Shown in pieces: positions 28,128-36,905 of a DNA stretch of 64,000 nt. The DNA is from Celeribacter naphthalenivorans (lineage in GTDB: Bacteria; Pseudomonadota; Alphaproteobacteria; Rhodobacterales; Rhodobacteraceae): positions 558,001 to 622,000 of the forward strand of contig NZ_JAIVLK010000001.1 of the NCBI RefSeq assembly GCF_020524585.1, written 5' to 3'. Position 1 is the first letter of the stretch; every line of letters begins with the position of its first letter. The position numbers were made by a program, and so were the translations under genes. The notes below the pieces were generated by a model that did not search any database, was not told where the DNA came from, and worked only from the letters and a program-made list of their open reading frames with translations.

Positions 28128-28153
28128 AACGCCTGAGCGCCGCGCAAAGTTCC
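28128..28153 (-). promoter_or_regulatory. EcfG-type promoter before DUF883 gene
   Basis: On the minus strand, GGAAC (plus 28149-28153), 17-bp spacer, CGTT (plus 28128-28131). This matches the known alphaproteobacterial EcfG consensus GGAAC-N16/17-CGTT exactly. The gene starts about 35 bases downstream. Confidence 0.85.
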
Positions 28154-28166
28154 GAAAAATATCTTT

Positions 28167-28192
28167 GGAACTTCGGGCCGGGGCGGGCCGTT
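28167..28192 (+). promoter_or_regulatory. EcfG-type promoter before DUF1328 gene
   Basis: GGAAC at 28167-28171, 17-bp spacer, CGTT at 28189-28192. It is back-to-back with the promoter at 28128-28153. The DUF1328 start lies 58 bases downstream. Confidence 0.85.
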
Positions 28193-29049: not shown

Positions 29050-29862
29050 TCAGGACACGAGCGTTTCCGTGCTGGCAAAGAACATCGCCTGCGACACGGC
29101 AGAGCGCACCTGATCTTCGCTGTAGGGTTTGGTGATCACGAAGGCCGGTTCCGGGCGGTCGCCGGTCAAAAGGCGCTCGGGGAAGGCAGTGATGAAGATC
29201 ACCGGCACATCGCCCGAGGCGCGCAGAATGTCGTTCACAGCGTCGATGCCAGACGAGCCATCGGCCAGTTGGATGTCCGAGAGGATCAGATCCGGCTGGG
29301 TCTCTTTCGCCAGTTTCACCGCTTCGCTGGCGATGCTGGCAACACCGGTGATCTGGTGCCCCATGTCGGCCACGATGCCTTGAAGATCGAGCGCGATGAT
29401 CGCCTCGTCTTCGATCACCATGACACGGCCATTGATGCTTTCGGTCATTTCATTTTGCGCAACGTTCAGAAGGTGCTCGACCTCATCGACATCGGTGCCC
29501 ATGATTTCGGCCACCTCGTCGAGGGTGAATTCCTCGATGGTGTGAAGCAGCAAAGCCTCGCGGGTGTTCGGCGTCAGGCGACGCAAATGCGCCTGGGCAC
29601 GCTTTGCGAGACCCGTCTCATCCTCGCCCGTCGGCGCGCCGGCACTGGCCCAGATCAGGTGGAAAGCATGGAACAAAGCCACTTTCGGGCTTTCTATCTC
29701 ATCAAAGACGGAGCGGTCGCTCAAAAGCGCCTCAAGAGTCGTCGCCGCATATTTGTCCCCGGTCTGTTGATCCCCGGTCAACGCCCGCGCGTAACGACGC
29801 AGGTAGGGCAGAAGGCTGGCCACAATGAGGGACAGTTTCTTCTCTGTCGGAGCTGTCGACAT
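29050..29862 (-). CDS. phyR: General stress response regulator PhyR
   Basis: A 270-residue PhyR. The N-terminal sigma-like domain (residues 1-140; LSLIVASLLPYLRRYARALTGDQQTGDKYA and TREALLLHTIEEFTLDEVAEIMG) mimics EcfG. The receiver domain (146-260; MVIEDEAIIALDLQGIV, LILSDIQLADGSSG with the phospho-acceptor Asp, FITAF, ITKPYSED) follows. When phosphorylated, PhyR binds NepR and frees EcfG. AAAGGACG lies upstream of the ATG at 29862. It is divergent from nepR-ecfG and shares with them a palindromic promoter. Confidence 0.97.
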   Translation of the reverse strand: MSTAPTEKKLSLIVASLLPYLRRYARALTGDQQTGDKYAATTLEALLSDRSVFDEIESPKVALFHAFHLIWASAGAPTGEDETGLAKRAQAHLRRLTPNTREALLLHTIEEFTLDEVAEIMGTDVDEVEHLLNVAQNEMTESINGRVMVIEDEAIIALDLQGIVADMGHQITGVASIASEAVKLAKETQPDLILSDIQLADGSSGIDAVNDILRASGDVPVIFITAFPERLLTGDRPEPAFVITKPYSEDQVRSAVSQAMFFASTETLVS

Positions 29863-29888: not shown

Positions 29889-29927
29889 TCGGGAACCAAA
29901 CGCGGCCGGAATGCGTTTGGTTCCCGA
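29889..29927. promoter_or_regulatory. Palindromic divergent EcfG promoter phyR / nepR-ecfG
   Basis: A 15-bp inverted repeat (29889-29903 and 29913-29927) with a 9-bp centre. It carries GGAAC (29892-29896), 17 bp, CGTT (29914-29917) on the plus strand. The mirror image on the minus strand has GGAAC at 29924-29920 and CGTT at 29902-29899. Both promoters occupy the same DNA. Confidence 0.88.
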
Positions 29928-29993
29928 AAACGGTATAAAATTTTCAGAAAGCCCACGGAAAATCCGGGAGATGGGCCTGAGATGGGAAAGATA

Positions 29994-30146
29994 ATGGCGC
30001 AACAGAAACCAAAACATAATCTCGATGAGCAGATCGAGATGAATTTGAAAAAAGTCTATCAGAAAACCCTCGACGAAGAGGTGCCTGACCGCTTCCTGGA
30101 ACTGCTTGAGCAGCTTAAGGAACAGGATGCGCGCAATGACCAGTAA
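29994..30146 (+). CDS. nepR: Anti-sigma factor NepR
   Basis: A 50-residue protein that reads MAQQKPKHNLDEQIEMNLKK and continues VYQKTLDEEVPDRFLELLEQL. This matches the NepR family, including the VPDRF-LLEQL core. NepR holds EcfG inactive and is sequestered by phosphorylated PhyR. It is short enough to be missed by length cut-offs. The start at 29994 has GGGAAAG upstream; an in-frame ATG at 29982 is an alternative. Its end overlaps ecfG by 11 bp, so the two are translationally coupled. Confidence 0.95.
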   Translation: MAQQKPKHNLDEQIEMNLKKVYQKTLDEEVPDRFLELLEQLKEQDARNDQ

Positions 30147-30732
30147 CGCAAGCCTGGCGCAAGACGCCCCGCCGCTCGATCCGCGCGAAGAGATCGTCAC
30201 GCATTTGCCTGCGATGCGGGCCTTTGCTCTCAGTCTGACGCGCAACCCGTCGCAGGCCGACGATCTGGTGCAGGACGCGGTGATCAAGGCGTGGAAAAAT
30301 CTCGCCTCTTTTCAGGTTGGCACGAACATGCGGGCCTGGCTGTTTACGATCCTGCGCAACACGTTTTATTCCGACCGTCGCAAAAGCAAACGCGAGGTGC
30401 AGGACACGGATGGCGCCTTTGCTGCCACTTTGGCGAACAAGCCGGACCATGACGGTCGCCTCGCCATGGCGGATTTCGAAGCGGCCTTTGTGCAGCTCAA
30501 ATCCGAACAGCGCGAGGCCCTGATGCTCGTGGGTGCCATGGGGTTTTCCTATGAAGAGGCCGCCGAGACCTGTGAAGTGGCGGTGGGCACGATCAAGAGC
30601 CGGGTCAACCGTGCGCGTCAGGCGCTGAGCGAGTTGATGAACCTCGAAGAGGGTGAGCCGCTGGAGCTGACCGATCAACAGACATTGGCGGTGATGAGCA
30701 CCAATATGCCGGGACGGGGGGATGCTGCGTGA
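30136..30732 (+). CDS. ecfG: ECF sigma factor EcfG (general stress response)
   Basis: A 198-residue ECF sigma factor of the EcfG group. Region 2 is LPAMRAFALSLTRNPSQADDLVQDAVIKAWKNLASFQVGTNMRAWLFTILRNTFYSDRRK. Region 4 is LKSEQREALMLVGAMGFSYEEAAETCEVAVGTIKSRVNRARQAL. A C-terminal tail LELTDQQTLAVMSTNMPGRGDAA follows. The start at 30136 lies inside the end of nepR. It recognises GGAAC-N16/17-CGTT promoters, several of which occur around this locus. Its stop overlaps the GTG of the kinase gene. Confidence 0.97.
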   Translation: MTSNASLAQDAPPLDPREEIVTHLPAMRAFALSLTRNPSQADDLVQDAVIKAWKNLASFQVGTNMRAWLFTILRNTFYSDRRKSKREVQDTDGAFAATLANKPDHDGRLAMADFEAAFVQLKSEQREALMLVGAMGFSYEEAAETCEVAVGTIKSRVNRARQALSELMNLEEGEPLELTDQQTLAVMSTNMPGRGDAA

Positions 30733-32480
30733 TCTGGCGCATTGTGCGTGCCCGCGTGGACGGGCTTGGCGTGCGTATTGCGGTTCTTCTGTCGATTGCG
30801 CTGTTTCCCATCGGCCTGATCGCTGTCTCCCTCACCCATCAATTCGCCAAAGCCGCGGATGAGCGCGCGCAGAGCAATCTGCTCGCGCTCACCGCGCAGG
30901 CGGCGGCGGGCGAAGAGGCTCTGATCCGCACGGGCTTTGGCACGGCGGAGGCGCTGGCCGCCGTCATGCCCTTTGTTGTCGCGGATGAAGCCGCCTGTGA
31001 CGGGGTGTTTTCGGGGTTCATTGAGAGCAATCCGTCATTTATCTTTGCAGGCTATATCAGTGCTGATGGGATTTTGGTCTGTGGGTCTGCGGAAACCGGG
31101 CAAGATTTCAAAAATCGCAGTGTTTACAAAAGTATGATCGAGGTGCCTGAGCTCAGAAGCGATCTCGTTCTGGACGGTCAGGTCAGTCACCGGCAAGTGA
31201 TCGTGCTCTCCGCGCCGGTCTTTAAGAATGGCCTGTTCGATGGCTATATCAGCGTCTCCCTGCCGCATGAGGACACCCGCATCAATCTCGAAAACGCGCC
31301 GGTCGACCGGCCTGTCGAACTGATCACCTTTAACGCAGAAGGCGAGGTTCTAAGTGCGTCTGGCGGGCTGGAAAACGTCGATGCGCGCTTGCCTGAGGGG
31401 CGTCCTCTGGCCCATCTCACCGGACAGTATCGCAGCTCTTTTTCGGGCGTGACCAATGATGGCGAGGAGCGTGTCTTTGCCGTGGTGCCGATCCTCAATG
31501 AAAAGGTCTACGCCATCGGGAGCTGGCCGCGCGAGCGCCTTTCGGTGGCGCCGGGCTTTGCGATTGCGACGCCGATGATCTTTCCCATCGCGATGTGGAT
31601 CACCAGCCTCGGCGTGGCTTATTTCGCGGTGCACCGCCTTGCGATCAAACACATACGTCACCTGAGCCGGGACATGCGCACCTTTGCGTCGACCCGACGC
31701 CACAATCCGCGCCGTAAGGACTTCGGACTGCCGCGCGAGCTGCGCGACATCGAAGGGGCGTGGCTTGATCTGGCGGAAACCGTGATCCGCGATGAGGCCG
31801 AACTTGAGGACACGATCCATGACAAATCGGTGCTCCTGAAAGAGGTGCATCATCGCGTCAAAAACAACCTGCAACTCATTGCTTCTATTGTGAATATGAA
31901 GGTCCGAAAGGCGAAGACGCCGGAGGCGCGCTTTGCGCTCAAAGAGGTGCAGGGCCGTGTGATGAGCATCGCCACCGTGCATCGCAGCCTCTATGAAACG
32001 ACCACAGAGGGCCGCGTGCGTGCCGATCAACTGTTGCGCAGCACGGTCGGCAAGCTGGTCGATGCGGGCGTCGGCAATGAGATCAAACTGGAGAACACCC
32101 AGAGCTACGAGCCGATCACGCTTTACCCGGATCAGGCCGTGCCCTTGTCGCTGTTGGCCACGGAGGCCACGACCAATGCCCTGAAATATGTGGGGCGGCC
32201 GAACGAAGGGTTGCCCTGTGTGGAGGTTAGCCTCACCCGGTTGGAACCTGAGATCGCCCGACTTTCCATTTCCAACAGCAAAGGCGCGCCGCTTTTGCCG
32301 CCGGAACAGATCAGTGGCACGGGGCTTGGCACCAGCCTGATTCAGGCTTTCGCACAGCAGCTCGGTGGTCAGCTCAAAGTCGAGGACGAAGAGGGCCGTT
32401 ACAGTGTTGTGATCGACTTCCCGATTGCCTCTTTCGATGAGGCCTCCGACGGCGGGTTCACGGAGGTGGAAGGCGACTGA
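30729..32480 (+). CDS. Membrane sensor histidine kinase (HisKA_2/HWE type), probable PhyK-like
   Basis: A 583-residue sensor kinase. TM1 at about residues 17-38, then a periplasmic sensor domain (about 40-280, CACHE/CHASE-like), TM2 at about 282-303, then a linker. The HisKA_2 segment LLKEVHHRVKNNLQLIASIVNMKVRK has the phospho-acceptor His. The ATPase domain contains SLLATEATTNALKY (N box) and SGTGLGTSLIQAFAQQLGG (G box). It starts at a GTG that overlaps the ecfG stop by 4 bp. Context suggests it phosphorylates PhyR. The ligand is unknown. Confidence 0.92.
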   Translation: MIWRIVRARVDGLGVRIAVLLSIALFPIGLIAVSLTHQFAKAADERAQSNLLALTAQAAAGEEALIRTGFGTAEALAAVMPFVVADEAACDGVFSGFIESNPSFIFAGYISADGILVCGSAETGQDFKNRSVYKSMIEVPELRSDLVLDGQVSHRQVIVLSAPVFKNGLFDGYISVSLPHEDTRINLENAPVDRPVELITFNAEGEVLSASGGLENVDARLPEGRPLAHLTGQYRSSFSGVTNDGEERVFAVVPILNEKVYAIGSWPRERLSVAPGFAIATPMIFPIAMWITSLGVAYFAVHRLAIKHIRHLSRDMRTFASTRRHNPRRKDFGLPRELRDIEGAWLDLAETVIRDEAELEDTIHDKSVLLKEVHHRVKNNLQLIASIVNMKVRKAKTPEARFALKEVQGRVMSIATVHRSLYETTTEGRVRADQLLRSTVGKLVDAGVGNEIKLENTQSYEPITLYPDQAVPLSLLATEATTNALKYVGRPNEGLPCVEVSLTRLEPEIARLSISNSKGAPLLPPEQISGTGLGTSLIQAFAQQLGGQLKVEDEEGRYSVVIDFPIASFDEASDGGFTEVEGD

Positions 32481-33580: not shown

Positions 33581-33606
33581 AACGCTCAAGTCTCTGTTCC
33601 GGTTCC
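33581..33606 (-). promoter_or_regulatory. EcfG-type promoter before AI-2E family gene
   Basis: Minus strand GGAAC (plus 33602-33606), 17-bp spacer, CGTT (plus 33581-33584). It is an exact match to the EcfG consensus, 24 bp before the chosen start. Confidence 0.8.
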
Positions 33607-35291: not shown

Positions 35292-36905
35292 ATGTCACTC
35301 TTTCACGTTCCCCGCCGCCTGAACCGTCATGTCACCCGCCGCGCCGTTTTGGGGGCGGGCACCGCGCTGGCCCTGACGCTCAGCCTGACCATGGGGATCG
35401 CCGGTGACGCGCAGGCGCAAACCCCGCCCGGAGTGCTCATCGTCGGCCAGATCGCCGAGCCCAAGGCGCTCGACCCGGCCGCTGTCACCGCCGTCAATGA
35501 TTTCCGCATTCTGATGAACGTCTACGACGGTCTCGTGCGCTATAAAGACGGCACGTTGGAGGTCGAACCGGCGCTGGCGACCGCTTGGGAGATCAGCGAG
35601 GACGGCACAGAGTACACCTTCAACTTGCGCGAGGGCGTGACATTTCACGACGGCACGCCGTTTAATGCCGAGGCTGTGAAGTTCAATTTTGAGCGCATGC
35701 TCAATGAGGATCACCCCTATCACAACACCGGGCCGTTCCCCTTGGCCTTCTTCTTTTCCTCCGTAGACAGCGTTGAGGTGGTGGACGATCTGACGGTGAA
35801 ATTCACCCTGAACGCGCCCTACGCGCCGTTCCTGTCCAATCTGGCCTATCCCACCGGCCTCATCGTCTCGCCCGCCGCTGTCGAACAATACGGTGCCGAG
35901 TTTGGCCGCAATCCGTCCGGCACCGGGCCGTTCAAATTCGCCGAATGGCGGTCGAACGAGGCGGTGGTGATCGAGGCCAACCCCGACTATTGGGATGGCG
36001 CGCCGGAGCTTCAGGCCGTGGTGTTCCGCCCGATCACCGACGCCAACACCCGCACCGCGGAGATGCTGGCGGGCGGCATCGATTTGATGGTCGAAGTGCC
36101 GCCCGTGGCGCTCTCAGAGTTCCAAAGTGACGCCTATCAGGTCTATGAACAGGCCGGCCCGCATGTCTGGTTCCTGATCCTGAACACCAAGGAAGGCCCC
36201 TTTGCCGACGTCCGCGTGCGTCAGGCCGCCAACTATGCGGTGAACAAGGAGGCTTTGGTCAATGAGGTGCTCGAAGGCACGGCAGATGTCGCCGCTGGCC
36301 CGACGCCGCCCGCTTTTGCATGGGCCTATAACGATGAGCTGTCGCCCTATCCCTATGATCCTGAGAAGGCCAAGTCCTTGCTGGCCGAGGCGGGCGCTGA
36401 GGGGGCCGAGCTGACGTTTTATGTGACCGAAGGCGGTTCGGGGATGCTCGATCCCATCGCCATGGGCACCGCCATTCAGGCCGATCTCGAGGCCGTGGGG
36501 TTCGATGTGAAAATCGAGACCTACGAGTGGAACACCTTCCTGGGCGAGGTGAACCCCGGTCTTGAGGGCAAGGCGGATATGGCCGAAATGGCCTGGATGA
36601 CCAACGATCCGGATACGCTGCCGTTCCTCGCTTTGCGCACGGAGGCCTGGCCCGAGGCGGGCGGGTTCAACTCCGGCTATTACTCCAACCCGAAGGTCGA
36701 CGAGTTGCTGGAAGCCGCGCGGGTTGCCACGGATCAGGGCGAACGTGCCGCGCTCTACAAAGAGATGCAGGCGATCGTGCAAGAGGACGCGCCTTGGGTC
36801 TTTGTCGCCAACTGGAAGCAGAATGCGGTCACCAGCGACAAGGTCGAAGGCTTTGCCTTGCAACCGTCCTTCTTCCTGCTGCTTGATGACGTCGTGAAGA
36901 ACTGA
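35292..36905 (+). CDS. ABC transporter substrate-binding protein, family 5 (peptide/nickel type)
   Basis: A 537-residue periplasmic binding protein. N-terminal signal with a twin-arginine-like motif (VTRRAVLGAG, residues 14-23) and cleavage around AQA. The mature part shows SBP_bac_5 features: LDPAAVTAVNDFRILMNVYDGLVRY, WEISEDGTEYTFNLREGVTFHDGTPFNAEAVKFNFERML, GTGPFKFAEW. It delivers peptides or similar ligands to the permease pair downstream. The start at 35292 has GAGGAAA upstream; the frame opens earlier at 35220. A hairpin separates it from the permease gene. Confidence 0.94.
   Translation: MSLFHVPRRLNRHVTRRAVLGAGTALALTLSLTMGIAGDAQAQTPPGVLIVGQIAEPKALDPAAVTAVNDFRILMNVYDGLVRYKDGTLEVEPALATAWEISEDGTEYTFNLREGVTFHDGTPFNAEAVKFNFERMLNEDHPYHNTGPFPLAFFFSSVDSVEVVDDLTVKFTLNAPYAPFLSNLAYPTGLIVSPAAVEQYGAEFGRNPSGTGPFKFAEWRSNEAVVIEANPDYWDGAPELQAVVFRPITDANTRTAEMLAGGIDLMVEVPPVALSEFQSDAYQVYEQAGPHVWFLILNTKEGPFADVRVRQAANYAVNKEALVNEVLEGTADVAAGPTPPAFAWAYNDELSPYPYDPEKAKSLLAEAGAEGAELTFYVTEGGSGMLDPIAMGTAIQADLEAVGFDVKIETYEWNTFLGEVNPGLEGKADMAEMAWMTNDPDTLPFLALRTEAWPEAGGFNSGYYSNPKVDELLEAARVATDQGERAALYKEMQAIVQEDAPWVFVANWKQNAVTSDKVEGFALQPSFFLLLDDVVKN

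Follow-up and report, generated by a model that had tools for sequence, protein, structure and literature searches.

A conserved palindrome between phyR and nepR-ecfG as a predicted pair of interlocked EcfG promoters in Rhodobacteraceae

Why should a perfect palindrome lie between the genes for an activator and for the anti-sigma and sigma factors of the same stress switch? In the window (the whole 64,000-nucleotide stretch of Celeribacter naphthalenivorans DNA that we analyzed), a site without strand at 29889..29927 consists of a perfect 15-bp inverted repeat around a 9-bp centre. The left arm (29889-29903) is TCGGGAACCAAACGC and the right arm (29913-29927) is GCGTTTGGTTCCCGA. The arms pair perfectly, and the site reads TCGGGAACCAAACGC-GGCCGGAAT-GCGTTTGGTTCCCGA, with GGCCGGAAT as the centre. 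An inverted-repeat tool lengthens the arms to 18 nt at 94% match. The palindrome is flanked by phyR on the minus strand and by nepR, ecfG and a kinase gene on the plus strand (29982-32480).

The phyR gene (29050..29862, minus strand) encodes an anti-anti-sigma response regulator of 270 aa, which matches NF006623 at 355 bits (cutoff, 240) as well as PF22029 and PF22233. The protein is identical to PhyR of Celeribacter sp. PS-C1. The nepR gene (29982..30146, plus strand) encodes a 54-aa anti-sigma factor that matches PF18557 at 50.4 bits (cutoff, 25.7); an NCBIfam search with this product gave no match. We use the nepR start at 29982, and there is an alternative in-frame start at 29994. The next gene (30136..30732, plus strand) encodes an ECF sigma factor of 198 aa that matches NF009198 at 310 bits (cutoff, 270). 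That model is named only "RNA polymerase sigma factor," and we call the protein EcfG because of its neighbours. The last gene (30729..32480, plus strand) was assigned by domain models to an HWE/HisKA_2 sensor histidine kinase, and its score against the PhyK model, 186 bits, is far under the 750-bit cutoff.

Each strand of the palindrome carries GGAAC-N17-CGTT. The predicted EcfG promoter for nepR-ecfG (29892..29917, plus strand) has GGAAC at 29892-29896 and CGTT at 29914-29917, and the predicted EcfG promoter for phyR (29899..29924, minus strand) has GGAAC at 29924-29920 and CGTT at 29902-29899. The inverted repeats, their centre and the motif on both strands are thus as the first-pass annotation had described them. 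Its further claim, that the -35 of one promoter overlaps the -10 of the other, was wrong, because GGAAC at 29892-29896 and the opposing AACG at 29899-29902 lie 2 bp apart. The cores are GGAAC-2 bp-AACG on the left side and CGTT-2 bp-GTTCC on the right side, and no core overlaps another. In each arm, GGAAC would serve as the -35 of one promoter and AACG/CGTT, 2 bp nearer the centre, as the -10 of its partner. The two promoters interleave over 19 bp (29899-29917) that are common to both, and their -10s are 11 bp apart in the window and mostly 10 or 11 bp apart across the Rhodobacteraceae sites. ECF promoters usually start transcription about 6 to 8 bp past CGTT. Because of this distance, starts would be expected at about 29923-29925 on the plus strand and about 29891-29893 on the minus strand.

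The EcfG (ECF15) consensus is given, in excerpts of PMC12148442, as GGAAC-N16-17-C/GGTT. Both strands match it exactly, with C at the -10 and a spacer of 17 on both sides. Both sites also lie upstream of GSR genes in the proper orientation, and the neighbouring genes encode an ECF sigma factor, NepR and PhyR. The motif GGAAC-N16/17-CGTT occurs six times in the window, versus a shuffle mean of 1.07 (largest value, 4 in 100 shuffles), and five of these matches are within 4 kb of phyR; the sixth, from the motif search, is at 36603-36627 on the minus strand. Across the whole genome, GGAAC-N17-CGTT shows no enrichment (30 matches, versus 42 for the pattern read backwards). Therefore, a lone match means little, and we put the weight on position and conservation.

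Three further exact sites in the window, a divergent pair and a single site, precede correctly oriented genes. The pair (28128-28192) has GGAAC-N17-CGTT both ways, back to back, with 13 bp between the -35s. It lies between a DUF883 gene (minus strand) and a DUF1328 gene (plus strand), and a Dps-like ferritin gene follows the latter. The single site (33581-33606) precedes an AI-2E-type transporter gene and lies so near its first ATG that the gene probably begins further in.

Conservation of the symmetrical arrangement in relatives had been proposed as a check by the first-pass annotation, and the arrangement passed it. We sampled 394 Rhodobacteraceae genomes from 393 genera, and 189 of them, selected by eye from the search table, had PhyR at E < 1e-40; the relatives were found by similarity to one PhyR, which under-samples divergent copies of the protein. 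A total of 195 phyR 5' regions came from 186 of these 189 genomes, with G031, G114 and G220 left out (G114 was seen separately, as L388). An opposed pair was defined as EcfG-type sites at an offset of 6 to 8 bp with at most 2 mismatches each. Such a pair was present in 172 of the 195 regions, versus 4 of 1950 shuffled regions, and, counted by genome, the interlocked pair was present in 169 of 186. The offset was 7 in 142 regions, 6 in 26 and 8 in 4, with ties resolved towards offset 7 in regions and shuffles likewise; tie-breaking shifts 2 of 150 regions. In 143 of the 172 paired regions the total mismatch was at most 1. The remaining 23 regions comprised 12 with a pair at another offset and 11 with none. 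When strict -35s and a -10 beginning with C or G were required, 101 of 195 regions still matched, versus 0 of 9750 shuffles. A nepR or ecfG match was divergent to phyR in 189 of 195 regions.

The strict pattern GGAACNNAACGN9-12CGTTN1-3GTTCC occurred in 83 of the 394 genomes, all of them among the 189 with PhyR, and the reversed pattern gave one match in total. The pattern was at the sampled phyR 5' regions in 82 of the 83 genomes, and the G114 site (L388) and a second G360 site (L389) also adjoin phyR. Strict palindromes were found at 25 of 49 named loci (L061-L109, some shared with the unnamed set), including five of five from Celeribacter. Cereibacter johrii, which we take to be a relative of Rhodobacter sphaeroides, also carries the palindrome (L083). 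The interlocked layout is a family trait of Rhodobacteraceae. Together with the exact motif and the gene context, this conservation bears out the first-pass reading of the palindrome as two opposed putative EcfG promoters that would serve phyR and nepR-ecfG, respectively.

What could such an interlock do? Once EcfG is free, its holoenzyme might bind the site in either orientation, which would place both halves of the partner switch under autoregulation from one site. Opening in one direction would melt or cover the -35 of the opposing promoter. The predicted melted region runs through the other promoter's -35, and we reasonably infer that two holoenzymes would not use the site at once. At low activity, the two promoters would be independent. 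At high activity, the shared site would cap total output, and the ratio of PhyR to NepR/EcfG transcripts would be fixed by the relative promoter strengths. We consider it quite likely that the palindrome acts as a bidirectional promoter of ECF type for autoregulated, mutually exclusive transcription of phyR and nepR-ecfG, with the ratio set by promoter strengths. Both halves of the stress switch probably draw on a single DNA site.

The first-pass annotation had proposed a stochastic ratio and an intrinsic feedback balance. We compared shared with separate sites in a toy simulation in which rates were equal and each firing caused a 5 s block. At 0.002 per s, the correlation at the shared site was 0.03, and there was no coupling. 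At 0.5 per s, the correlation was -0.30 and the output was about 10, versus 17 for separate sites. At this rate the Fano factor was 0.75 for the shared site versus 0.57, and the spread of the fraction was 0.112 versus 0.066. Within this model, the greater noise at the shared site leans towards the stochastic-ratio idea. According to excerpts of PMC12825309, competition at bidirectional sigma70 promoters is absent when activity is basal and arises only when it is high; however, their interference lowers noise, opposite to our simulation. Because coupling or competition appears only at high activity in both the simulation and the sigma70 experiments, a feedback balance may be possible only at strong induction. 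We favour a ratio lock with an output cap. The available text of PMC5830050 reports that, in R. sphaeroides, ecfG mRNA increased under membrane stress, depending on PhyR, but phyR mRNA did not, and that three oxidants raised phyR mRNA 2-3 fold. This unequal response, from a species whose own site lies outside our sample, is a poor fit to simple co-output.

The architecture might also be a frozen accident, in which two ordinary EcfG promoters interlocked by chance in the family's ancestor and exclusion plays no role. We give this reading substantial weight, somewhat short of an even chance. Because bases are shared, neither promoter could move without harming the other, and selection on each promoter alone would keep the register. 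This would fit the architecture and not the ratio lock. It agrees with the drift of the register by 1 bp with a spacer of 16 versus 17, as seen in the offsets above (the two spacers stand at about 58:42 among the 172 family sites), and with the finding of no clear shared constraint outside the promoter elements. However, promoter positions in other families argue against it.

We examined 66 phyR 5' regions from 33 families outside Rhodobacteraceae (one region had only 62 bases), allowing 1 mismatch per site. A nepR or ecfG match was divergent in 33 of them. The interlock was found at +6 or +7 in four regions, three of family f42 and one of f149. Back-to-back promoters at -32 to -34 were found in 12 regions of nine families (among L281-L306), other spacings of -43 to -66 in six, and +2 as the best pair in four; 40 of the 66 had no opposed pair of either layout. 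A further set of 30 loci (L391-L420; 28 from family f5 and 2 from f107), in which 28 of 68 listed places are covered, had back-to-back promoters at -31 to -35 in 23. This corresponds to 5-10 bp between the -35s, with no bases shared, and 0 of 600 shuffles of these loci gave a pair at -32 to -34. Near-fixed spacing is thus often found without shared bases (23 of 30 loci; 12 of 66 regions), which suggests that the spacing may matter in itself. In an order-level sample around G499, PhyR was present in 3 of 36 genomes.

We also searched a class sample of 385 genomes with the strict pattern, its centre widened to 8-13. Two genomes matched, the window genome and G596, and the reversed control gave one match. 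The strict interlock in G596 (L275, about 1501-1532) was not counted, because it is not at phyR and not divergent. It belongs to another family, and its neighbours, as judged by reading the ORFs, are an orphan response-regulator gene and the final part of a lactonase-like gene.

A compressed form, GGAAC(C/G)-N15/16-(C/G)GTTCC, is present at phyR in Rhodobacteraceae (L185, L189, L361, L365 and L377) and in family f37 (L313, L317 and L321). We initially set pairs at offset +2 aside as free matches, since 6 of their 9 letters match automatically. A more stringent +2 form was found in 5 of 195 Rhodobacteraceae regions and 3 of 66 other-family regions, versus 2 of 9750 and 0 of 3300 shuffles. In the compressed form, a GGAACC/GGTTCC box could act as a -35 one way and as a -10 the other.

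Judged by motif positions, a coupled promoter position recurs at the phyR locus, and the interlock is mostly its Rhodobacteraceae version. A wider proposal, which we hold tentatively and rate as rather improbable, is that selection acts on how the phyR and nepR-ecfG promoters are placed relative to each other, and that there are a few discrete geometries, in each of which one polymerase event would influence the other and so lock the ratio of activator to inhibitor and sigma factor over the whole stress range. The candidate geometries would be the interlocked one at +6 to +8 (Rhodobacteraceae, f42 and f149), the back-to-back one at -31 to -35 (at least nine families) and, perhaps as a third, the compressed GGAACC/GGTTCC box (f37 and a few Rhodobacteraceae).

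It is unlikely that only one promoter is used and that the opposite match is a by-product of symmetry. Three Roseovarius loci (L092, L094 and L096) do retain a single strict site, on the phyR side, and the differing responses of the R. sphaeroides phyR and ecfG mRNAs described above (PMC5830050) would also suit a single promoter. However, the two sides look alike in the family. Positions 2-5 of GGAAC are intact in 172 of 172 sites and position 1 in 171 of 172, on both sides, and C begins the -10 in 136 of 172 on the phyR side versus 116 of 172 on the nepR side, a conservation that is partly built in because the sites were chosen for matching. The counts for this first -10 letter are in line with the C/GGTT of the consensus, as excerpted from PMC12148442. 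Moreover, excerpts of PMC3616915 describe RpoE2-dependent starts in Sinorhizobium for rsiB1 (phyR-type) as well as for rsiA1 (nepR-type).

The perfect 15-bp dyad of the Celeribacter genome would also suit an operator bound by a dimeric regulator that perhaps controls both genes. We looked for symmetry beyond the promoter letters in 92 sites, the window's included, drawn from the first 150 regions only (2-bp gaps; at most 2 mismatches in 18 letters). In the flanks and centre of these sites, arm symmetry was no better than for dealt-out arms. One spacer base next to the -35 matched in 50 of 92 sites versus 38.6 expected (0 of 1000 permutations), and the first -10 letter matched between arms in 62 of 92 versus 56.6 expected (30 of 1000). 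This slight excess is what an operator would have in its favour. However, the spacer-base excess shrank within GC bins to 50 versus 43.8, with 184 of 5000 permutations as high. Elsewhere, the symmetry comprises EcfG letters only, and dyad symmetry conserved beyond the promoter elements was not found across the 92 sites. Because the symmetry is nearly confined to promoter letters, interlocked promoters explain the palindrome, and neither an operator nor an RNA hairpin is needed; we regard an operator as very improbable. There is only a slim chance that the repeat acts as an RNA hairpin or terminator, since a stem of 13-15 bp could form if transcribed but the flanking genes point outwards and the predicted starts are at the outer arm ends, so that neither mRNA should contain the stem, and changes that keep the stem are barely above chance. 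Stem keeping had been a candidate from the covariation beside the -35 (0 of 1000 permutations at first), and we dropped it once GC binning gave 184 of 5000.

The preferred reading, two interlocked promoters, has parallels in known systems. The alphaproteobacterial GSR locus has divergent phyR and nepR-ecfG units with EcfG/RpoE2-dependent, autoregulated promoters (PMC8103513 and PMC3616915), and excerpts of a review state that both transcription units run from GSR-dependent promoters (PMC8103513). In the available parts of these two sources, there is no description of both GSR promoters as one interlocked palindrome. Nor did we find the interlock described in the literature searched, in which subscription papers were mostly outside the scope.

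The site also resembles the bacterial bidirectional promoters of Warman et al. (PMC12825309), in which, according to the accessible text, pseudo-symmetric DNA engages RNA polymerase either way to yield two divergent RNAs. As in a bidirectional promoter, the two strands carry overlapping promoter sequences, here over 19 bp and in a conserved arrangement. In the sigma70 type, starts lie beside or within a shared -10 (excerpts of PMC12825309). In contrast, the window site has no shared symmetric -10; the -10s are separate, two full ECF-type promoters interleave with each -35 by the opposing -10, and the predicted starts are about 30 bp apart. The interlock also differs in being one locus that is present in most Rhodobacteraceae members with PhyR. 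The back-to-back layout of some other families is its non-overlapping counterpart, and near-fixed spacing without overlap there raises the question of why spacing matters. We file the site as a variant of the bidirectional promoter, formed by two interlocking alternative-sigma promoters and conserved at the locus of a switch. It would be a natural, conserved example of such a promoter read by an alternative sigma factor, at the very place from which a stress switch expresses both activator and inhibitor. Should the exclusion prove important, a single DNA element, instead of separate promoters, would determine the ratio of these components.
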